From positions 1 through 26,490 of the IMG/VR virus record IMGVR_UViG_3300032722_000102: a DNA stretch of 26,490 bases, one strand, 5' to 3'. A program made the translations under genes and the position numbers. Shown in pieces: positions 3,542 to 20,418 of the stretch (the stretch's first letter is position 1; each line of letters begins with the position of its first letter). The notes under the pieces were generated by a model. That model was not told the DNA's origin. It was given only the letters and a program-made list of their open reading frames with translations, and ran no database searches. Source of the DNA: a virus.

Positions 3542-6500
3542 TTATTGTGTATCATTAATGACCACCCAGTTAGGGTTTTGATCATCTATTATTTTAAACC
3601 AGCCACGACCTATTTGAGAATCTAAAACGGCCATACCTTCTACTTCAGCAGCGTTAAAATTAACTTGCACTGACGTTAAATCAGCTTCGGTAGACACCTC
3701 AGTAATACTACTAAATAAAATAGCGGTTCTATCTTCTGCCTCTGCAGAGGTGAGGGTTTCTGTTATGGAACGTGTAAATGTTGCAAGTCTATTTTCAGAA
3801 TCTGCTAAAGTGTTTGGCTCAACTATGGCGCTTTGAAAATTGGCTTGAACAGTCTCAATATCTAGTAAAGCTGTACTTTCTGTTGTAGAGGAATTAAAGC
3901 TAGCCTGCCCTGTTTCTACGTCATTTGAGGTTAAATTTTCAACTAAACCCCGATAAAAACTAGCTGTAAATGATTCGCTGTCCGCATAACCAGCGTTTTC
4001 CACAATGCTGCTACTGACTGAATTAAAACAGCTTTCGATATCAGCCAAAGTGCTTGGTTCTGTAATACTGCTGTTATAGTAAGAAGGAGATAAAAAGCTC
4101 CAACCAGTATTGTCGCCGTTGTTAGCAGAATATTGGGCTGTCCAAGTAGCCCCGCCAGTTGCATTAGAGTCTTGAATTTGCATGTAGGTTGCACTAACCG
4201 TACCACTAGCTTGACTAATTGTTGCCTGTGTGCCGGGTGTATCACTTATTAAATATTTTTGTGTTGTACCCGATGTAGCAAAAGTGCCGACTGCGTTGGT
4301 TGTGCCAGACTTAAATTGTAGTGTTCCGCTTGAAAAAGTTAGAGTTCGAGTCGAACCCATTGTCAAAGCATCTTGAAAAGCATATATTGCAGTGCCAAAA
4401 AAAGTAACTGGACTATTAATTGTTACACCACTATTGGTAATTGTCTGTGTTGTTGCAACAGTTCCAGCAAAAGTTAAACTTCCAACTACAGAAGTATAAG
4501 TGGTAATTCCACCTAAATTTAAGTTTCTATAAATATAGGTTACAAAGTTCCCTCTAGTAAGCGTTCCTGTAAAACCAGTAAAATTTAAAGTACCGACGTA
4601 GGTTGTTGTTGTAATGCTTACTGTGTCTGAACCCGCACTCACATAAAAATCGAGCGCATTAGATTCAGTTCCGCCTGTGCTTCCAAAAACAATGCCACGA
4701 GAGCCTGTTGAGCCGCTGTATGTACAATTAACTGTGGGAGTGCCAGTATAAGAAAAGTTTGTGGCAGTTCCCATACTTATAATATTGGTACTACTACCAG
4801 TTAAAGTAATATTTCCTGTACCAAATGCAATCGCCCTTGTATTGCTGTTTGACGCACTTAAAATATTGCAAGTTAAAGTGTAATTACCAGCACCATTATT
4901 TGTAAGGTCTAATGTTCCTGAAGTTAAAAAAAGTGTGCCTGAAGTTGTTAATGCGCCATTTAAAGCTACAGTTGAACCTGAAGTAGCTACTGCAAAACTT
5001 CCAGCAATAGTAGAGTTGCCATTAGTAGTAATAATTTGAGTGCCAGAAGACCCATTAAATGTATATGTTCCTGTTGAACTACTTAAAGTCATGCTACTAC
5101 TGAAAGTTAAATTTCCAGCTATAGTTTGACCTGTTGCGTTATTTTGAGAACCACTAAATCCAGTAAAATTTAAATTATTAAAATATGGAGCATTAGATAA
5201 GTTTATATTGTCAGAACCAGCGGAAATATTAAGAGTAAATGGATTTGATGATGTATTACCAACAATAGACCTTGCTCCTGTTGAGCCTGAATAAGTAGCA
5301 TTAAATACAGGAGTGCCAGTTAAAGTAAGTCCTGTTGCTGTTGTTGTTCCTAAGTTCACTACAGTTGCATTAGAGCCAGTTACAATAATATTTCCTGTAC
5401 CAAACAAAATAGAACGATTGTTGGTATTGTTTGCGTTAAATAAACCTGTTGTAAGAGTTAAATTATTGAGGTCTAATGTGCCGCTTGTAAGAGTAAATGT
5501 TCTAGTTGAGCCAATGGTTAGAGCATCTTGTAGCTGTAAAGTGTTTGTGGATGTGCCTGTGCCTACTGTTATTGGGAAATCAATTGTGCTATTGCCGTTT
5601 GTAGTAATTTGTTGAGAAGCTGACGCTGAACCAAATGTAGTTGCGTTTGTGCCTGACGATAATGTCATGCCACTAGAAAGCGTCAAATTCCCATAAATTG
5701 TTCTAACAAAGTTTGTAGCTGTCCCTGAAAAACCAGTAAAGTTTAAATTTTTTATTTGCTTTCCATATACACCAACGCTATCAGAACCAGCACTAATATT
5801 TACATTAAGTGCGTTTGTTTCTGTACCACCAGCAGTATTTGCAAAAGACATTGTTCTAGTGCCAGTAGACCCTGAATATGTAGAATTTACTGTTGGAGTT
5901 CCTGTATAACTAAAATTTGTTGCTGTATCTGTAGTCCAAATAGTAGTAGCAGAACCAGTTAATGTAATGTTTCCTGTTCCAAATAAAATAGAACGAGTAT
6001 TACTGTTTGACGAACTAAACAAACCACAAGTAAGTGTTTTGCTGTTTAAATCTAAAGTTCCTGAAGTTAAAGTAAGGTTTCGAGTAGAGCCAATAGTTAA
6101 AGCATCTTGCAGTTGAAGTGTATTAGTGCTTGTTCCTGTTCCTACTGTAATAGGAAAATCTAATGTTTGTCCATTAGTAGTAATTTTTTGCGTAGCTGAT
6201 GTAGCTAAAAAAGAAGTAGCATTTACACCAGCGGTATAAGTCACTCCAGCTACAGCGGTAAAATCACCAAAAATAGTTCTTGAGTTATTAGCTAACGTTC
6301 CAGCAAAACCAGTTAAATTTAAATTTTTTACGCCAGTATTAACTGTTGCTGTACCTGTTCCGCTAATAATATTAAAACTAATAGCATTTGCCTCTGTTAC
6401 ACTTCCAGAAGCAACGCTAATACCAATAGTTCCTGAAGTAGTGTTATTTATGTTAACAACAGGAGTTCCTGTTACAGACATGGTAGATGATTGTGTCCAT

Positions 6501-6760
6501 TGGTTTGCTGTTGTTAATACACAAGTAATATTTTGTGTACCAAAAGCAAGTGTTCCAGTAAATCCTGAGCAGTTAACAGCAGATACAGTAGGGTTAATTC
6601 CTAAAGTTACAGTATTTGCTCCTGAGTTGGCATCAAAATAAACTAAATCACCAGAACCAGGTACAGTTTGACCGCCAGTGCCACCAGAAGTAGATGCCCA
6701 TTTAGTGCCAGCAGTTGCATCCCAAGTTGCTGTACCACCTACCCAATATCTGTTAGCCAT
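3542..6760 (-). CDS. Very large repetitive beta-structured fibre protein
   Basis: This 1072-aa protein starts MANRYWVGGTATWDA, a start shared by many large phage fibre or adhesin proteins. Roughly residues 60-790 are made of about four or five copies of a long (about 190 aa) Ser/Thr/Asn/Gly-rich unit. Recurring landmarks are NLNFTGFSG, TRSILFGTGNI, FSYTGTPTVN, TYSGSTG and GSTRTFTLTSGTLDL, suggesting a beta-helix or stacked beta-solenoid shaft. After a motif ending ANNGDNTGWSF comes a C-terminal array of eight 20-residue repeats (listed separately). Cysteine is rare. No enzymatic domain is visible, so a structural or receptor-reaching role is more likely than a depolymerase. It is probably a virion appendage, not host-derived. 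Confidence 0.75.
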   Translation of the reverse strand: MANRYWVGGTATWDATAGTKWASTSGGTGGQTVPGSGDLVYFDANSGANTVTLGINPTVSAVNCSGFTGTLAFGTQNITCVLTTANQWTQSSTMSVTGTPVVNINNTTSGTIGISVASGSVTEANAISFNIISGTGTATVNTGVKNLNLTGFAGTLANNSRTIFGDFTAVAGVTYTAGVNATSFLATSATQKITTNGQTLDFPITVGTGTSTNTLQLQDALTIGSTRNLTLTSGTLDLNSKTLTCGLFSSSNSNTRSILFGTGNITLTGSATTIWTTDTATNFSYTGTPTVNSTYSGSTGTRTMSFANTAGGTETNALNVNISAGSDSVGVYGKQIKNLNFTGFSGTATNFVRTIYGNLTLSSGMTLSSGTNATTFGSASASQQITTNGNSTIDFPITVGTGTSTNTLQLQDALTIGSTRTFTLTSGTLDLNNLTLTTGLFNANNTNNRSILFGTGNIIVTGSNATVVNLGTTTATGLTLTGTPVFNATYSGSTGARSIVGNTSSNPFTLNISAGSDNINLSNAPYFNNLNFTGFSGSQNNATGQTIAGNLTFSSSMTLSSSTGTYTFNGSSGTQIITTNGNSTIAGSFAVATSGSTVALNGALTTSGTLFLTSGTLDLTNNGAGNYTLTCNILSASNSNTRAIAFGTGNITLTGSSTNIISMGTATNFSYTGTPTVNCTYSGSTGSRGIVFGSTGGTESNALDFYVSAGSDTVSITTTTYVGTLNFTGFTGTLTRGNFVTYIYRNLNLGGITTYTSVVGSLTFAGTVATTQTITNSGVTINSPVTFFGTAIYAFQDALTMGSTRTLTFSSGTLQFKSGTTNAVGTFATSGTTQKYLISDTPGTQATISQASGTVSATYMQIQDSNATGGATWTAQYSANNGDNTGWSFLSPSYYNSSITEPSTLADIESCFNSVSSSIVENAGYADSESFTASFYRGLVENLTSNDVETGQASFNSSTTESTALLDIETVQANFQSAIVEPNTLADSENRLATFTRSITETLTSAEAEDRTAILFSSITEVSTEADLTSVQVNFNAAEVEGMAVLDSQIGRGWFKIIDDQNPNWVVINDTQ
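3551..4079 (-). repeat. Eight 20-residue protein repeats at the fibre C-terminus
   Basis: The C-terminal part of the 1072-aa fibre divides into eight consecutive 20-residue units. The pattern is F-x-x-S-I-x-E-x-x-T-x-x-D-x-E-x-x-x-A-x, for example FQSAIVEPNTLADSENRLAT followed by FTRSITETLTSAEAEDRTAI. The units have diverged at DNA level but the period is exact, with no gaps through the array. The protein ends with one partial unit and NWVVINDTQ. Confidence 0.8.
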
Positions 6761-12845: not shown

Positions 12846-13093
12846 TATCTACTCCAAAAACCCTGAAACAAATTTGCCAAGATAGCACCGATTAAAGCAA
12901 AGGCACCGCCAACCATCATCATAGTTTTCCAACCGCCATGCGCATGAGCCAAGGTCTTTTCAATAGACTGAATTGCTTCCTTGATCTCTTGCATTTCTTT
13001 AACCATTTTATCCATATCAAGCTGTAAATGTTGGATATCGTTAGCATGGGTTGCTAGTTCTCGGGCTGTTGAAATAGGGTCTATATCGCTCAT
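12845..13093 (-). CDS. Coiled-coil protein with one C-terminal TM segment (XhlA/holin-like)
   Basis: An upstream in-frame GTG (13105) exists, but the ATG at 13093 overlaps the stop of the DUF6321-like gene (ATGA) and is preferred, giving 82 aa. Residues about 8-50 form a heptad-like amphipathic helix (LQLDMDKMVKEMQEIKEAIQ). One membrane segment follows near the C-terminus (MMMVGGAFALIGAILANLF) and then a short basic end. This matches the layout of XhlA/haemolysin-type phage membrane proteins, which assist lysis. It lies far from the spanin genes, so a different membrane or virion role is also possible. Confidence 0.6.
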   Translation of the reverse strand: MSDIDPISTARELATHANDIQHLQLDMDKMVKEMQEIKEAIQSIEKTLAHAHGGWKTMMMVGGAFALIGAILANLFQGFWSR

Positions 13094-13350
13094 TTGCAGT
13101 TCCACCGTTTTAAACTAGCAGCCTTCCTTGTAGGCTTACCGTTTTCATCTTTCATCGGGCCGGGCATACCAGACATCCTTGCACAGAACGACTTCTGCCT
13201 AGCACCACCTTGAGGTTGCGGAGCCTTTAAATTAGACCCCGTTTCCCTGTTGTACTTCGCACGGCCTTTGGCAGTAAGACCAGCCCCTTTCGAGACTGGA
13301 AGCTTCTCGCCTCTACCGACAGCTAGAGAGGGGCCTTTTTTCTTAGCCAT
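13090..13350 (-). CDS. DUF6321-like small phage protein
   Basis: This 86-aa basic protein starts MAKKKGPSLAVGRGEKLP. It then has SKGAGLTAKGRAKYNRETGS, NLKAPQPQGG, KSFCARMSGMPGPMKDENGK and a final SLKRWNC. This highly conserved Gly/Lys/Cys pattern is one I recognise as the DUF6321 family of marine and freshwater phages, with no assigned function. The two Cys residues are preserved near the end. It overlaps the preceding virion gene by eight bases and the next gene by four. Its conservation suggests an essential structural or packaging-related job. Confidence 0.72.
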   Translation of the reverse strand: MAKKKGPSLAVGRGEKLPVSKGAGLTAKGRAKYNRETGSNLKAPQPQGGARQKSFCARMSGMPGPMKDENGKPTRKAASLKRWNCK

Positions 13351-13944: not shown

Positions 13945-14622
13945 TTAGTCAAAGTTACCGTATGGGTAAGCAGTTGTAGAACCGATTGAACCATCGAGCT
14001 GTGTATAACGAACTGTGATGTAGGCTTGACCAGCTGTTGGGCCACCAGTCATACCTGTGCCGTTAATAGCAAAAGTAAATACAACTTGTGACAAGAGGCT
14101 TGGCTCTGGAACGTTAGTAATATCGGCAGTTGTGGCTTGCCATGCAGCTAATTGAGTAGCAGTTAAAGTGATTGCGTTACGGCCGGTAGCCAAAGTAGCA
14201 ACAGAACCGTACTGAGCAGCAGAGCTAGTAGCAAAGCCGTTGGAAATATATAACGAAGTGCTGGTTGCACCAGTTTGGGTAGGAACAACACCAACGTCAA
14301 CAATTAAGTCTTCGATACGTGAGCCAGTTGGTAAATATGCTACAAAACCACGATAAACTGCAGTAGCGCTATCAGCTGTTGGGGTAGCCGCTACAGGAGG
14401 GTATACAGTAGAAGAAGGTGTGTAAACAACAGCATTGTTGTTAGGGATAGCGTTCGAACCAACGAATTGGCCAGAAGAACCAGCGTAACCGGCAGTATTA
14501 GCGGTTGTGTTTGTAAATGTTAAAGAAGCGAATTGGGCCATAGCTGCGTAGCCAATGTCACGCAAAGCACCAAAACGAGTAGAGCCGGCTAAAATTGGAC
14601 CGGAAAAAGTAGAACGTGACAT
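13945..14622 (-). CDS. Beta-rich virion protein
   Basis: An upstream TTG (14628) is in frame, but the ATG at 14622 has AAGGA nine bases upstream and is preferred, giving about 225 aa. It begins MSRSTFSGPILAGSTRFGAL, then LRDIGYAAMAQFASLTF. The rest is Ala/Thr/Ser/Gly-rich strands with GFVAYLPTGSRIEDLIVDVG in the middle. 'SRSTFSGPvlsGt...G.xRdxGyvxxxQ' is a pattern I associate with structural proteins encoded just after capsid genes in environmental phages. It is likely a capsid decoration or head-surface protein, inferred from context. Confidence 0.68.
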   Translation of the reverse strand: MSRSTFSGPILAGSTRFGALRDIGYAAMAQFASLTFTNTTANTAGYAGSSGQFVGSNAIPNNNAVVYTPSSTVYPPVAATPTADSATAVYRGFVAYLPTGSRIEDLIVDVGVVPTQTGATSTSLYISNGFATSSAAQYGSVATLATGRNAITLTATQLAAWQATTADITNVPEPSLLSQVVFTFAINGTGMTGGPTAGQAYITVRYTQLDGSIGSTTAYPYGNFD

Positions 14623-14628
14623 TATCAA

Positions 14629-14787
14629 TATCCTTATGCAAAAGAACTTACACCAATCGTTGCATCGTCTGCTGGGGCAGTGGCGGTGTAAGCAATCACC
14701 CAGTTAGTGCTAGTTTACACGTTTTTAACTTTTGTGCAACAGTTTTTAAGTAAAATAAGACAAAACAACAAATAATTTTGGGGGGCT
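14629..14787. promoter_or_regulatory. Divergent intergenic region with promoter-like sequence and direct repeats
   Basis: This about 160-base region separates the leftward virion genes from the rightward GNAT/HNH pair. A minus-strand promoter-like pair is visible: TTGCAC (14739-14734) and TAAACT (14717-14712), 16 bases apart. The octamer GTTTTTAA occurs at 14721-14728 and 14742-14749, an exact 21-base period, bracketing the putative -35. The rightward promoter is not clear; the region before the GNAT gene is A/T-rich. The leftmost 60 bases read as open minus-strand codons, discussed in findings. Confidence 0.4.
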
Positions 14788-14794
14788 ATGGAAA

Positions 14795-15283
14795 ATGAAA
14801 TTCACAGTAAGAAAAGTAGACATAAGAGATCCAGCAATTCAAAGCCTCCTTCTTTTCCTCCAGAGAAAAATTCTTCCATCGGATCAACCGTACGAACCGA
14901 CGAGAGGCCATTGGTGGATAGCTTATGCCGAATGTGGGAAGCCTGTCGCTTTTGCGGGTCTGGTGCGCTCGACGAAATGGACCGATACCGGCTACTTATG
15001 TAGAGCTGGTGTGATGGATGGGTTTACTGGACACGGTTTACAAAAACGTCTTATACTTGCACGAATCAAACAGGCTAGGAGTTTAGGATGGAATTGGCTC
15101 ATTACCGATACAACAAACAATCCAGCGTCATCAAACTCGCTTATCAATGCGGGGTTCAAAATCTATATACCCGCAAACAAGTGGTCGTATCGTAACGCAA
15201 TCTATTGGAAATATAAGGTAAACCAAGATGCCGTACAAAGACGAGAACGTAAAAAAAGAGTTTCACAAACAACAGAGCCGTGA
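14795..15283 (+). CDS. GNAT-family N-acetyltransferase on the opposite strand
   Basis: This 162-aa protein has GNAT features. Around 47-72 is a strand pair (GKPVAFAGLVRS... YLCRAGVMDGF). At 76-90 is the acetyl-CoA pyrophosphate-binding turn GFTGHGLQKRLILAR, and at 100-122 NWLITDTTNNPASSNSLINAG followed by FKIY, the usual 'N..S..ly.k.GF' end of the fold. It transfers an acetyl group from acetyl-CoA to an amine; the substrate is unknown. GGGGGG lies 9 bases before the chosen ATG. An overlapping frame with ATG at 14788 gives a non-protein-like product and is rejected. Running against all neighbours, it looks like acquired cargo. Confidence 0.75.
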   Translation: MKFTVRKVDIRDPAIQSLLLFLQRKILPSDQPYEPTRGHWWIAYAECGKPVAFAGLVRSTKWTDTGYLCRAGVMDGFTGHGLQKRLILARIKQARSLGWNWLITDTTNNPASSNSLINAGFKIYIPANKWSYRNAIYWKYKVNQDAVQRRERKKRVSQTTEP

Positions 15284-15578
15284 ACACTATTTAAGAAACC
15301 AAGCTGAAATAAAGACTCGCACTGCGGAAAGAAAGAAAAAATTTAAGGAAGAGTGGGCGCAATACAAAGCTACCCTGGCTTGTACGAAATGTGGGTTTAG
15401 CCACCCAGCCGCTCTTGATTTTCACCACGTAAATCCAGAAGAAAAAGAAGGAAACATACACCGCTTCCTATCAAATGGGCAACATACTAAACTAAAAGAA
15501 GAACTAAAAAAGTGTATTGTGCTTTGCGCTAACTGCCACAGGCTTCATCACTACAACGAAAAAAACCCCCCGGGGTGA
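15228..15578 (+). CDS. HNH endonuclease (zinc-finger type), opposite strand
   Basis: This 116-aa protein has a Lys/Glu/Arg-rich helical N-terminus (about 1-48) and an HNH domain. C52-x2-C55 and C100-x2-C103 form the structural zinc site. D64-F-H66-H67 with N69 supply the catalytic strand (LDFHHVNP), and N102/H107 lie in LCANCHRLHHY. HNH enzymes nick or cut DNA; in phages they are often homing endonucleases. It overlaps the end of the GNAT gene by 56 bases in another frame, with AAGGTA before its ATG. Its stop lies inside a hairpin that probably terminates the convergent minus-strand operon. Confidence 0.82.
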   Translation: MPYKDENVKKEFHKQQSREHYLRNQAEIKTRTAERKKKFKEEWAQYKATLACTKCGFSHPAALDFHHVNPEEKEGNIHRFLSNGQHTKLKEELKKCIVLCANCHRLHHYNEKNPPG

Positions 15579-15602
15579 GCATTGTTAAGAGGCTTGGGGG
15601 GT
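15559..15602 (-). terminator. Rho-independent terminator of the minus-strand operon
   Basis: On the minus strand ACCCCCC (15602-15596) pairs with GGGGGGT (15571-15565), and the T-run ends at 15559. The loop is long (about 24 bases), so it is weaker than the capsid-gene terminator. It lies just after the 64-aa gene's stop (15610) and overlaps the 3' end of the rightward HNH gene, so the two units converge here. Confidence 0.6.
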
Positions 15603-15609
15603 GTTGTTA

Positions 15610-15804
15610 TTACTTAGTTACTTCTTCAGCGTCACCAACGGTAAATGCGGATTCAACTGCGTGAACTACTTTATCTACAATTGCTTCTTCAGCTGGCGCT
15701 TCTACTACTGGGGCAGCTTCAACAACTGGTGCGGCAGGTTTAGCTGCAACAGCGCCATCATCAAAAGCTACTGTACTGGATTTAATTTGAAAACTGTCTT
15801 CCAT
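15610..15804 (-). CDS. Small acidic Ala/Pro/Val-rich protein
   Basis: This 64-aa acidic protein (MEDSFQIKSSTVAFDDG...) has a low-complexity centre, AAKPAAPVVEAAPVVEAPAEE, with two near-copies of APVVEA, and a charged C-terminal helix. It is predicted disordered. AGGAG seven bases upstream supports the start. It lies ten bases after the HNH gene and is followed by a terminator. No family is recognised; as a disordered acidic peptide it could be a virion linker or a partner of a basic protein. Confidence 0.55.
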   Translation of the reverse strand: MEDSFQIKSSTVAFDDGAVAAKPAAPVVEAAPVVEAPAEEAIVDKVVHAVESAFTVGDAEEVTK

Positions 15805-15813
15805 TTACTTCTC

Positions 15814-16374
15814 CTAAACTTTATTAGACTTCTTTAAATTTTCCTCTTGGGTAATAACACGCAGATTCCAAGGAACGTGTAATCCACAAACATTAACCCC
15901 ATGTAACGGTATTATATGATCAACTACATATTGTTCGCCAGTAGTTTTAGTCATAGTGATAGCGATTTGGTATAGCCCCATTATTTCGGTTTTTTGTTTA
16001 TAAGTAATCCACGATGGGGTTGCGTCTCTAAACCTTCGGCGGCGAAGACTTGTAAGTGTTTTGTATAAATCTGGATTTTCTTCTTTATATTTTTTCTTAT
16101 ACGCTTTTTTCTCCTCTGCAGGCCTAGCTTGAGCGCGTGCAATTACCATAGCCCTATTACGCTCGTAGTAGCGGCGCCCGGCTTCTTTAGCTGCTTCCGA
16201 CTTTGGCTTAAGACTTCGTTTGGCGTTGTCTTTTATCCACTCCTCCTTTAAACACTCTGTGCAAGCAGCTCTAAGGTTACGTAGCGCTTTGTGCCCACGT
16301 ATACAAGGCTGCCCTGTTAGGTAATATTTGCCACCTGTTTCTCTAGCTTCCTTGCGGGTTTTAGGATATTCCAC
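15814..16374 (-). CDS. HNH endonuclease with N-terminal zinc finger
   Basis: The open frame extends to 16416, but that part overlaps a promoter -10. The GTG at 16374, just after AGGAGGT, is preferred, giving about 186 aa. An N-terminal C-x3-H...C-x2-C finger (CIRGHKALRNLRAACTEC) is followed by a long Lys/Arg/Glu helix and the HNH core YVVDHIIPLHGVNVCG, then HVPWNLRVITQEENLKKSN. The D-H pair and the later Asn are the metal-site and catalytic residues. It directly follows the capsid terminator and has its own promoter, the usual setting of a free-standing homing endonuclease. Confidence 0.85.
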   Translation of the reverse strand: MEYPKTRKEARETGGKYYLTGQPCIRGHKALRNLRAACTECLKEEWIKDNAKRSLKPKSEAAKEAGRRYYERNRAMVIARAQARPAEEKKAYKKKYKEENPDLYKTLTSLRRRRFRDATPSWITYKQKTEIMGLYQIAITMTKTTGEQYVVDHIIPLHGVNVCGLHVPWNLRVITQEENLKKSNKV

Positions 16375-16400
16375 GGTACCTCCTGAGTTACGATACAGGT

Positions 16401-16409
16401 AGTATAGCA
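16401..16409 (-). promoter_or_regulatory. Extended -10 promoter for the HNH/64-aa unit
   Basis: On the minus strand the sequence TGCTATACT is a consensus-like extended -10 (TGn plus TATACT). It lies six bases past the T-run of the capsid terminator and about 27 bases before the preferred GTG start. No good -35 is visible, as expected for extended -10 promoters. Confidence 0.55.
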
Positions 16410-16414
16410 TAAAC

Positions 16415-16440
16415 AAAAAACCCCGCCTTGTGAGCGGGGT
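16415..16440 (-). terminator. Strong rho-independent terminator after the major capsid gene
   Basis: On the minus strand ACCCCGC (16440-16434) pairs with GCGGGGT (16426-16420) across a seven-base loop, followed by TTTTTT (16420-16415). It begins 27 bases after the capsid stop codon and should end the head-gene transcript before the HNH gene. Confidence 0.88.
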
Positions 16441-16466
16441 CTTGTACTACTAAGCCCTTGATTCTA

Positions 16467-17399
16467 TTAGAAAGAACCTGAAGAACCCCATACGCCCAGT
16501 GGATCACTCCAACCAAACGAGTAACGCTCACGGGATTTGTAGCGTACATTCCCGGTGTCAAAATCCCCGTCCATTGAATTCTGGAGAGGAGTACGTTCGA
16601 ACATTTTCAAACCGTTAGGAACATCAGTCAACAAGAACCATGCATTTACGTCGGTCAAGAAGTGGTTAACTGTGTAACCTTCTGGAACAGCGCCGTTGTT
16701 CTTAATTGCATTGATATCGTTGTTGTTTGTGCCAACGCGGAGGTTAGTCTCGAGCAAACGAGTAGCAACGAACATCAATGAAGGAGGAACAACTAACTTG
16801 CGTGGCTTAGCTGCGATCAAGAGACCGCGTTCATCAGTCCAAGCTGCGATTTGAATCACAGCTGCTTCCAATGAAGTTTCGTTCAAGTCAACAGGAGTTG
16901 TAGGAGCGTTGTAGTTAACACCACCAGAAACTAGTGAGTGACCTACAGCAGTACCTGAGCTGTTAACACCGAACAAAGAAACGTTATCACCACCTAAGTA
17001 AGAACCGTTGAAACCGTTGTTGAGAACGGAAGCACCTTTAACTTGCTTGGTGTATGACATGGCGCGAGCCAATGCTTTAGTGTAACGAGCAGACAAGCTG
17101 TCGTACAAGTTATCTTCAATCGCTTCTTCAGTGATCGAGAAACCTAAAGCAATAGTTTCATGTGAGTAGCGTGCAGTGAATGCTTCTTGTGCTGTATCGT
17201 AAGAAATAGCACCGCCTTCATTCTTAACTGGAGCTGCGGAGAAACCAGAGAGTTTGGTTTCTTCTTCGAATGAACGCTCAGAGCTTTCGATTTCAAAAAG
17301 TTCTTTGTGTTCTTCGCCGTAGCGCTTGTACTCTAATCCGAACAATGCGTTCAGTCCTGGGAGCAACTCTTTTAGGAGCTGCGAGCGTGAAATAGCCAT
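16467..17399 (-). CDS. Major capsid protein
   Basis: This is a 310-aa protein. The N-terminus, MAISRSQLLKELLPGLNALFGLEY, is typical of a major head protein group in environmental phages. The sequence then has an E-loop-like region (AISYDTAQEAFTARYSHETI), helices with ITEEAIEDNLYDS and ALARAMSYTKQVKGA, and a C-terminal GNVRYKSRERYSFGWSDPLGVW typical of capsid P/A domains. An HK97-type fold is expected for this family but cannot be proven here. Context is decisive: it follows the scaffold and two head genes, has a strong ribosome-binding site (AAAGGAG) and is followed by a strong terminator, as a highly expressed gene would be. No protease gene is seen nearby. Confidence 0.85.
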   Translation of the reverse strand: MAISRSQLLKELLPGLNALFGLEYKRYGEEHKELFEIESSERSFEEETKLSGFSAAPVKNEGGAISYDTAQEAFTARYSHETIALGFSITEEAIEDNLYDSLSARYTKALARAMSYTKQVKGASVLNNGFNGSYLGGDNVSLFGVNSSGTAVGHSLVSGGVNYNAPTTPVDLNETSLEAAVIQIAAWTDERGLLIAAKPRKLVVPPSLMFVATRLLETNLRVGTNNNDINAIKNNGAVPEGYTVNHFLTDVNAWFLLTDVPNGLKMFERTPLQNSMDGDFDTGNVRYKSRERYSFGWSDPLGVWGSSGSF

Positions 17400-19514: not shown

Positions 19515-19970
19515 TTAATAAGCACCGAAATAACGCTCGGTGTGTACGTTTGACTTGCGCCGGTTCCATTCGGCGGGTACTACTTGTAAGTTGCTAGCTA
19601 CGCTTAAACCGCCTTTTGACACAGGAACAATGTGGTCTACATGCCAAGAAAAGCCTGTAATAGCGCTGCGCTTACGCATAAGATCGACTGCTTCAGTAAG
19701 AACTAGCCTGTCAAACTCGGGTAAGTTCTTTTCAAAACTACGGCGAACTATCTGGTATCTAAGTTTTGCTTGTTTTCTAGCTTCAGAAAGCGGTTTAGCA
19801 CTTCTACGTTTTTCATATGCTGCCTTACCACCAGCTGCTACATAGGCTGCGTCTTCTTTCCGTTTTTGTGCTTTACCTTTTTCAGAAGAGTAATACTTTC
19901 GTTTAGCCGCTTTAACCTTTTCAGGGTTTGCGGCTCTCCAAGCTCTAAGATATTCAGTTCTAGTACGCAC
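19515..19970 (-). CDS. HNH endonuclease inside the head operon
   Basis: An upstream TTG (19997) is in frame, but the GTG at 19970 has AAGGGG eight bases before it and is preferred, giving about 151 aa. The N-terminus is a Lys/Arg-rich repeat-like helical region (YLRAWRAANPEKVKAAKRKY). The C-terminal HNH core reads SWHVDHIVPVSKGG, then LSVASNLQVVPAEWNRRKSN, with the D-H pair and Asn residues of the active site. It overlaps the GroES-like gene's end by 11 bases and lies 10 bases before the scaffold. An insertion between essential head genes fits a homing endonuclease. Confidence 0.83.
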   Translation of the reverse strand: MRTRTEYLRAWRAANPEKVKAAKRKYYSSEKGKAQKRKEDAAYVAAGGKAAYEKRRSAKPLSEARKQAKLRYQIVRRSFEKNLPEFDRLVLTEAVDLMRKRSAITGFSWHVDHIVPVSKGGLSVASNLQVVPAEWNRRKSNVHTERYFGAY

Positions 19971-20418
19971 GCGTGATTCCCCTTGGGTCCTCGACAACTG
20001 CTTCTACTTGGTCGTCGTTGATAATCCGAAACTCTTTTCCGTAAATCATTACACGGGTTCCTGAGTACGCCCGAGTGATAACAAAATCACCCTCTTTACA
20101 CCAAGCACCTGTTGGAAATTTTGTTTCGTCTTTATAAGCGAGATCGCCAATCTTTAAAACAAATAAAACTGGAGAAGTCTGTTCTTCGATCTTCATAGTT
20201 TCTTTTGCTTTTTTAATCAGTGAGTTCTCGAACTCGTCCTTAGCTTCAATCAGAGCGCATAAAATTTTCCACCCTTTTGGATCAGGTAGTTGTTTTGCTG
20301 CTTGCTCATTAGCGATATCTGCTTCGTCCATTGCTGCTTGCTCCGCCTGTGAAGTTGGAGATACTACGCCCGGTGGCAGGATTAACCCTTCCGGTGGTAA
20401 TGCGATGGTTTCACTCAT
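19960..20418 (-). CDS. GroES-like co-chaperonin
   Basis: This is a 152-aa protein. About residues 1-47 are a Pro/Ala/Gln/Glu-rich extension not seen in bacterial GroES. From 48 the chain follows the GroES pattern: a first strand (GWKILCALIE), a charged region where the mobile loop would lie (about 61-80, with FENSLIKK), then VLKIGDLAYKDETKFPTG, WCKEGDFVITRAYSGTRVMI and YGKEFRIINDDQVEAVVE. The last two match the GroES ending 'vGDxVlf.kysGteVkidgeeylilrEdDIlavvE' well. It would cap host GroEL for folding phage proteins such as the capsid. It overlaps the 69-aa gene by eight bases. Confidence 0.78.
   Translation of the reverse strand: MSETIALPPEGLILPPGVVSPTSQAEQAAMDEADIANEQAAKQLPDPKGWKILCALIEAKDEFENSLIKKAKETMKIEEQTSPVLFVLKIGDLAYKDETKFPTGAWCKEGDFVITRAYSGTRVMIYGKEFRIINDDQVEAVVEDPRGITRAY

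Follow-up and report, generated by a model that had tools for sequence, protein, structure and literature searches.

AbiF is a toxic protein of the Abi_2/HEPN type whose activity is restrained by the abiF RNA both in cis and in trans, as described in excerpts of PMC12373285. According to the same excerpts, mutations that weaken the stems of this RNA abolish neutralization, and excerpts of this paper and two others (PMC12737573 and PMC12948488) place AbiF among type III–like toxin-antitoxin systems and treat it as an ancestor of Cas13. The authors of the C. difficile study stated, in the portion consulted, that the anti-phage activity of their AbiF is still challenging to demonstrate (PMC12373285). 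In another system, the noncoding RNA pseudo-ToxI of phage PhiTE, which resembles a type III antitoxin, was reported to suppress a suicide defense (excerpts of PMC3475682). An abiF RNA has already been reported in one phage, and the excerpts of PMC9964418 and PMC12197685 that describe it give no decoy reading. A literature search, mainly of titles and the beginnings of abstracts, retrieved no phage abiF RNA described as an inhibitor of AbiF. Anti-AbiF DNA of Lactococcus phage sk1 is named in a title cited in excerpts of PMC12737573; a cmscan search of the sk1 genome gave no abiF RNA match, and sk1 was set aside as an earlier example.

The DNA analyzed here (the window), 26,490 bases long, comprises one entire IMG/VR virus record and represents an incomplete genome fragment of a freshwater-type phage. 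Searching the window with cmscan placed a single family over its cut-off, the abiF RNA (RF03085), at positions 15565 to 15601 of the minus strand, where it overlaps the last 14 nt of an HNH endonuclease gene. The match scores 55 bits against a cut-off of 37 and covers positions 1 to 37 of the 37 in the model, with the outer and inner stems paired, the conserved loop core present, and no broken pair marked in the alignment. By minimum free energy, the stretch folds no more stably than shuffled sequences do (z −1.0). The hairpin ends in seven T residues (15559 to 15565, minus strand), which, as read from the sequence, may form an intrinsic-terminator tail for leftward transcripts. An earlier note on this DNA described a convergent terminator and overlooked the RNA, which lies where the HNH gene ends; this terminator is in fact a full-length abiF RNA. 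No Abi_2 (PF07751) match was found in the record at E values up to 1, and the RNA is flanked by the HNH gene and by a small open reading frame (ORF) that begins at 15610. As far as the record reaches, the RNA is therefore an orphan rather than part of a toxin-antitoxin system. We put the probability at roughly 60% that it is an antitoxin decoy directed against a host AbiF, lying next to an unrelated homing-type GNAT–HNH pair in an insertion hot spot. These features suggest that the phage may use the antidote RNA without the poison to disarm a suicide defense of its likely host.

A stretch of 49 nt that takes in the T-run is unchanged between the window RNA and the RNA that precedes AbiF genes of Polynucleobacter (loci L280 and L305); with the RNA of Zwartia vadi, the identity extends over 46 nt. 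Among 151 Polynucleobacter genomes, RF03085 was found in 10; nine of these are over the cut-off, all with Abi_2 directly behind the RNA, and four of the nine carry the identical 37 nt. The tenth genome (G223) scores 36.4 bits, below the cut-off, and has no Abi_2 within the stretch examined. At the level of the family, 3 of 299 genomes had the abiF RNA, over the cut-off in 2. The resemblance to a host defense that characterizes an antitoxin decoy is found here in the 49-nt identity to the AbiF loci of Polynucleobacter, the presumed host. The window RNA is best identified as a copy of the antitoxin RNA of a Burkholderiales AbiF system, such as that of Polynucleobacter.

Among the matches listed, the 3′ linker of the window RNA, CACCCC, is present in 7 viral and 5 bacterial loci. 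The bacteria are two Polynucleobacter, Zwartia vadi, and a beta- and a "gamma"-proteobacterial MAG; the loci of both MAGs (L243 and L249) are without Abi_2. In a comparison over 39 nt with 69 bacterial AbiF RNAs, the nearest was that of Polynucleobacter, at a distance of 0, for the window copies L180 and L195 and also for L209, L189, L208, L221, and L233, and at a distance of 1 for L179. The RNA of mycobacteriophage LittleE (L214) is identical over 39 nt to the AbiF RNA of Gordonia effusa, and two further loci of mycobacteriophage type (L207 and L217) show 3 and 2 changes from Gordonia, respectively, a thin margin as a Parabacteroides RNA stands at 4. For Acinetobacter phage Acj61 and Roseobacter phage CRP-143, no close bacterial relative was present among 69 bacterial AbiF RNAs; this set is mostly Bacteroidota, so the missing match says little.

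Orphan abiF RNAs recur in unrelated phages. A search with the abiF core pattern retrieved 71 viral loci, two of which are near-copies of the window, and Abi_2 was found in 2 of the 71 viral records, leaving 69 without it. Duplicates are included in these counts: the 69 orphans represent 47 distinct 37-nt sequences, and 64 loci represent 51 distinct contexts. All 20 viral loci tested pass the Rfam cut-off, as do seven of eight named phages (Arthrobacter phage Mimi fails), and none of the eight named phages with the motif has Abi_2. Among the nearest same-strand ORFs of the viral orphans (53 of 59 distinct ones scanned), Pfam returned 24 families, none of which was Abi_2 and none of which occurred in more than two members. 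The ORFs adjoining the viral orphans are diverse phage genes (53 scanned; for PHROG, 25 of 69 families listed). A second form of the RNA, in which ATGCC..GCAC replaces AAGCC..GCTC, is shared by AbiF loci of Polynucleobacter and phages of Salicola and Aeromonas (L401 to L404, L356, L357, and L361). The search pattern misses this form, so the orphan counts are lower bounds.

The bacterial scan gave at least 119 loci (L234 to L352), with Abi_2 within 2.5 kb in 62 of those listed. When loci with at least 600 nt downstream were compared, Abi_2 was found near the motif in 2 of 64 viral loci versus 56 of 100 bacterial loci among the matches listed (Fisher p 1.4e-13), the search for bacterial Abi_2 having used a model built up from two viral AbiF proteins instead of PF07751, so that some toxins were possibly missed. 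The other 44 of these 100 listed bacterial loci have no Abi_2 close by, which means that lone copies are not confined to phages and weakens a purely phage reading. These toxin-less bacterial RNAs may be relics, anti-addiction copies, RNAs whose toxins were missed, or RNAs paired with another toxin; 13 ORFs behind bacterial orphans contained no Abi_2.

It is very unlikely that the window RNA belongs to a complete AbiF system that is aimed at rival phages and has its toxin gene in the unseen part of the genome. The record is an incomplete, 26.5-kb fragment and the longest records of its relatives reach 60 to 67 kb, so there is room for an AbiF gene elsewhere; moreover, Abi_2 does accompany the RNA in 2 of the 71 viral records, and C. 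difficile prophages carry AbiF according to excerpts of PMC12373285. However, the toxin gene starts less than 200 nt from the RNA on the same strand in both of these viral loci and in 60 of the 62 listed bacterial loci with Abi_2, whereas the flanks here are phage genes, and Abi_2 is missing from long viral records (up to 184 kb) that carry the RNA.

Another reading, which we consider unlikely, is that the hairpin is a relic or has been borrowed as a terminator: antitoxin and terminator of a host AbiF locus would have been captured by recombination and kept for termination alone. Such an origin would fit the Polynucleobacter match, which takes in the T-run, the existence of bacterial orphans, and the relatives in which the GNAT–HNH pair and the capsid gene converge (type a), most of which, among those inspected, have an ordinary hairpin where the window has the abiF RNA. 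Several observations speak against it. First, a covarying loop pair is not required for termination. Loop positions 15 and 19, which the search pattern left free, are nonetheless complementary in all 47 distinct viral orphans (C-G in 25, T-A in 19, and A-T in 3). The inner stem and the core were fixed by the pattern and are thus uninformative; in the outer stem, individual pairs are formed by 38 to 43 of the 47 orphans, with changed but matching pairs at several positions, when the 37-nt sequences are counted at fixed offsets and other linker lengths are scored as unpaired. These comparisons of sequences show that the abiF hairpin structure is kept, with covariation, in phages. Second, a T-run was scored in only 23 of the 71 viral loci, compared to 54 of the 62 listed bacterial loci with Abi_2. 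Third, three lineages of this phage family, represented by the window, L179, and L209, carry the RNA at one and the same place, the capsid-side intergenic region. The order in L179 is capsid gene, RNA, and a homologue of the gene at 13945, with GNAT and HNH absent; that in L209 is capsid gene, RNA, HNH, and GNAT (the last 57% identical to that of the window). Directly before the abiF RNA of L179, ARAGORN called a tRNA-Cys with an odd anticodon (266 to 339), and cmscan found no tRNA there. In the family of the window itself the abiF RNA is rare: it was found in 2 of 46 records gathered by GNAT or major capsid protein similarity, both of them near-copies of the window.

The decoy reading was further considered in the light of where other phages carry the RNA. 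In Aeromonas phages PT2 and T7-Ah, it lies just upstream of the scaffold gene, and in CRP-143, it lies between the scaffold and capsid genes. The copy of S-SZBM1 and the sub-threshold copy of Mimi are located between tRNA genes, those of Acj61 and Thibault are within about 2 kb of tRNA genes, and that of CGphi29 has no scaffold, capsid, or tRNA neighbor. The copy in the family of the window shares its hot spot with homing nucleases and an acetyltransferase. Most of these placements would fit an RNA that is produced in quantity. The chances are evenly balanced that orphan abiF RNAs are widespread inhibitors of AbiF in freshwater Burkholderiales phages, mycobacteriophages, cyanophages, and T4-like and T7-like phages, which would carry copies from their own host lineages among head genes or in tRNA arrays and make them abundantly. 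As a separate observation, tRNA gene arrays frequently contain viral abiF motifs or lie close to them: tRNA genes were also present in 7 of 20 viral loci scanned (L167, L171, L178, L183, L190, L206, and L227) and in four of eight named-phage loci (L354, L355, L358, and L360).

In the window, the site that holds the RNA is bordered on the right by the major capsid protein gene (16467 to 17399, minus strand; phrog_371, E 1.6e-18) and on the left by a gene of the structural region without a Pfam or PHROG match (13945 to 14628, minus strand). The earlier note had located the GNAT and HNH genes between head and tail genes; the capsid side of this statement holds, and the left neighbor has no family match to bear out the rest. 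It had also described two rightward genes among leftward ones, and indeed the GNAT and HNH ORFs are the sole long rightward ORFs taken for genes in their neighborhood, the long flanking ORFs taken for genes all being leftward. Two elements were absent from that account: an endonuclease VII/HNH-like gene (15814 to 16416, minus strand; phrog_1035 endonuclease VII, E 4e-12), which is a second endonuclease in the site, and a small Ala/Val-rich ORF of no Pfam or PHROG family (15610 to 15804, minus strand). A hairpin/promoter scan called a terminator-like hairpin 3′ of the capsid gene (16417 to 16443, minus strand). Since the capsid gene is separated from the RNA by this hairpin, a gene, and a small ORF, strong late expression of the RNA is not assured. 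The leftward run contains another endonuclease-like ORF (19515 to 19997, minus strand) similar to that at 15814 to 16416, and both match one place in G223.

The intergenic region to the left of GNAT (14629 to 14794) is divergent, as previously proposed. It contains, on the minus strand, the leader of the 13945 gene, which is conserved, and putative promoters for leftward and rightward transcription can be picked out by eye; a promoter scan called none within 14629 to 14794. The leader (14629 to 14707, minus strand) is probably a structured RNA with the core CTGCCCCAGCAGACGATGCAACGATTGG between complementary arms and is also present in relatives. A peptide-like reading of this segment as a gene remnant was rejected: its frame is broken in many relatives and its bases are conserved, which makes a structured leader the more likely interpretation. 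The Rfam scan of the window gave no match for the leader, which is a candidate for a new cis-regulatory RNA of a phage structural gene. Elsewhere in the window, positions 13090 to 13350 (minus strand) encode an 86-aa DUF6321 protein (PF19846) that is about 85–93% identical in many pair-bearing relatives; the homologues of the nearby 13945 gene are often 45–62% identical. The 1072-aa protein encoded at 3542 to 6760 (minus strand) had no PHROG match at E 0.1.

The GNAT acetyltransferase gene (14795 to 15283, plus strand) encodes 162 aa, the last 18 of them in the overlap with the HNH gene. Its assignment in the earlier note is borne out by a Pfam match to PF00583 (28.1 bits against a cut-off of 20.7) and by the GNAT fold of an AlphaFold2 model, which has a mean pLDDT of 87.2 and falls below 50 at residues 155–162. 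In a fold comparison with VIA-align, the best 50 matches gave Z scores of 15.8–17.6 and were nearly all titled acetyltransferases. The acetyl-CoA loop of GNAT enzymes has the form Q/R-x-x-G-x-G/A. Across 36 GNAT sequences, G79 of this loop is invariant, G81 is kept in at least 90%, and the first position is without Q/R (G76 in the window protein); 42 residues in total are invariant. The whole set comprised 58 distinct sequences among 84. In 30 representatives, the GNAT core has a pS of 0.71, near saturation, and a pN of 0.16, a ratio of 0.23. Synonymous differences near saturation, combined with the low pN and the 42 invariant residues, indicate that the enzyme has been maintained, and the gene is judged from these comparisons to be under strong purifying selection.

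Assignment of a substrate was attempted in several ways. A PDB sequence search gave a chance-like match alone (piggyBat transposase, E 0.04), NCBIfam had no family for the protein, PHROG gave no match at E 0.1, and no PADLOC model matched. By fold, the matches were tied among RimI, Naa50, AAC(2′)-Ia, and others, so no substrate is claimed. Searching 50,697 phage records with the GNAT gave a single match, in a Limnohabitans phage (43% identity), where the gene adjoins a winged-HTH gene and no HNH was detected in the 9.7-kb locus. A second relative, 50% identical and likewise lacking a nearby HNH match, is found in G223, a genome congeneric with Polynucleobacter genome G116. The acetyltransferase as such is real.

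The HNH endonuclease gene (15228 to 15578, plus strand) encodes 116 aa. Its identification as HNH is supported by strong matches to PHROG HNH families (phrog_2255, E 3.6e-25); in Pfam, PF01844 scores 16.5 bits, under the cut-off of 21.4. Across 28 aligned sequences, the catalytic HNH residues D64-F-H-H67, N102, and H104 and the zinc cysteines C52, C55, and C100 are invariant, and a fourth cysteine (C103) is not. PADLOC gave two weak matches (E 6e-4 and 0.026).

The two genes overlap out of frame by 56 nt, stop codon included (15228 to 15283, plus strand), exactly as the earlier note had it. Among 83 pairs including that of the window, the overlap is 56 nt in 78, 50 nt in 4, and absent in 1, the exception being L091 (GNAT 49% identical), which has a 119-nt gap; judged from this constancy, the overlap is not due to chance. 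Within the overlap, pN/pS in the 30 representatives is 0.94 in the GNAT frame and 0.48 in the HNH frame, and the HNH start, MPYKD, is identical in the five HNH-only loci compared. A frameshift fusion of GNAT with the HNH, which lies in the +1 frame, was rejected, since the stop codon varies and the GNAT tail is unconstrained: at the GNAT stop, 81 loci have TAA in 42, TGA in 34, TAG in 3, and no stop in 2. Overprinting therefore accounts for the fixed overlap, the GNAT tail being identified, from these substitution patterns, as an overprint on the 5′ end of the HNH gene. A putative ribosome-binding site for HNH, AAGGT, lies inside the GNAT gene (15215 to 15219, plus strand); AAGG occurs no more than 22 nt upstream of the HNH ATG in 68 of the 83 pairs, and the HNH start may use this site.

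The distribution of the pair was followed in a viral contig scan, which gave 130 stretches with a GNAT relative; 80 of the 130 were kept, and 81 loci were typed including the window. The pair and the capsid gene converge in 52 loci (type a); in 28 (type b), the pair directly precedes the terminase genes and shares their strand; one locus ends too soon. The opposite-strand layout stressed in the earlier note is accordingly not general. In the four type-b genomes that were followed further, the capsid-side site holds neither another GNAT nor another HNH. About 190 nt separate the capsid gene from the 13945 homologue in one of them, two have 0.6–0.7 kb without a matched 13945 homologue, and one has 3.7 kb of other sequence. 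When 80 capsid-centered loci were examined, both borders were visible in 18; 10 of these are empty (123–173 nt), as the earlier note had proposed to check, four have HNH without GNAT, and four have other inserts, that in L108 being, as read by eye, an endonuclease VII–like gene. In 21 further capsid-lineage records (13.7–67.5 kb), HNH was found in four and GNAT in none, the GNAT search having no positive among its records. Universal conservation in relatives, which the earlier note would have taken against its reading, is thus absent, and the empty sites, the HNH-only sites, and the two alternative genome sites agree with its earlier description as accessory cargo carried with a homing-type nuclease. 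It had also been suggested to be a moron: absence from relatives was seen, no sigma-70-like site was called upstream of GNAT, and a box resembling TAAAAT is seen there repeatedly among the type-a sequences inspected. The best explanation for the stretch between the capsid gene and its neighbor is an insertion hot spot for accessory cargo.

A role of the pair in the virion or in packaging, with GNAT acetylating a virion or terminase protein, is rather improbable. Terminase-associated HNH proteins occur in HK97-type phages, in the 28 type-b loci (L050 and L053 inspected) the terminase genes follow the pair and share its strand, and the GNAT core has a pN/pS of 0.23. Nevertheless, the pair is convergent with the capsid gene in the 52 type-a loci, relatives exist without it, and two GNAT homologues occur elsewhere without a detected HNH.

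That the two genes form an inseparable unit, which the earlier note had pictured as moving or evolving together, is not supported. HNH occurs without GNAT, and GNAT occurs without a detected HNH; given the weak correlation of their distance matrices (Mantel r 0.28, p 0.001, 56 pairs), the two are not simply evolving as one. This weak co-evolution, together with a protein tail that is overprinted and modeled with low confidence, would be in line with GNAT as a selfish passenger or an inactive remnant mobilized by HNH, which is nevertheless extremely unlikely given the pS of 0.71 and pN of 0.16 in 30 representatives and the 42 residues invariant in 36 sequences. Taken from these comparisons, the GNAT–HNH cassette is old, selected, and optional, dispensable to its carriers and found at two genome sites. 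Free-standing HNH homing endonucleases occur in intergenic sites of phages. The HNH gene resembles them in its HNH residues, optional presence, and empty sites, and in a hot spot with several endonuclease types. It differs in its companion, a GNAT gene that extends into the 5′ end of this predicted nuclease gene. By itself, the pair is an ordinary though well-conserved accessory cassette.

As an antitoxin decoy, the orphan abiF RNA, placed toward the end of the leftward (capsid-side) gene run, would be made by the infecting phage as the 3′ end of a transcript, complete with a terminator tail. In a presumed Polynucleobacter-like host, the hairpin would bind the AbiF HEPN ribonuclease as the cognate antitoxin does, and the bound toxin would stay inactive when the level of host antitoxin falls, protecting the infection. 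If phages do carry the host-matched AbiF antitoxin alone, this would provide evidence that AbiF-type systems counter phages in nature, and orphan abiF RNAs would be possible markers of host range.

Compared to known systems, the window RNA shares several features with each and differs from each. First, it belongs to the same RNA family as RCd22 of C. difficile prophage phi027 and is a full-length copy; unlike RCd22, which in excerpts of PMC12373285 has two motifs and lies in front of abiF, it has no toxin gene. Second, like the abiF sRNA of cyanophage S-CREM1, it is an abiF RNA found by an Rfam search, in that case in a lytic phage (PMC9964418 and the review PMC12197685). In the excerpts of these two papers, the S-CREM1 RNA is reported as an sRNA of unconfirmed role, with no link to AbiF neutralization or host matching. 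Third, RNA anti-CRISPRs (Racrs; excerpts of PMC10651486) are also solitary viral copies of a defense RNA and act as decoys; they differ in being CRISPR repeats rather than an antitoxin, and, according to these excerpts, those found did not include type VI. Fourth, pseudo-ToxI is likewise a phage-borne antitoxin-like RNA, one that can be acquired from a host locus by recombination (excerpts of PMC3475682). ToxI of ToxIN is a tandem-repeat RNA, whereas the window carries a single 37-nt abiF hairpin as a putative decoy for AbiF, a HEPN protein. By analogy, the decoy would work like pseudo-ToxI and, if so, would provide a second case, after ToxIN, of RNA decoys used against toxin-antitoxin defense.
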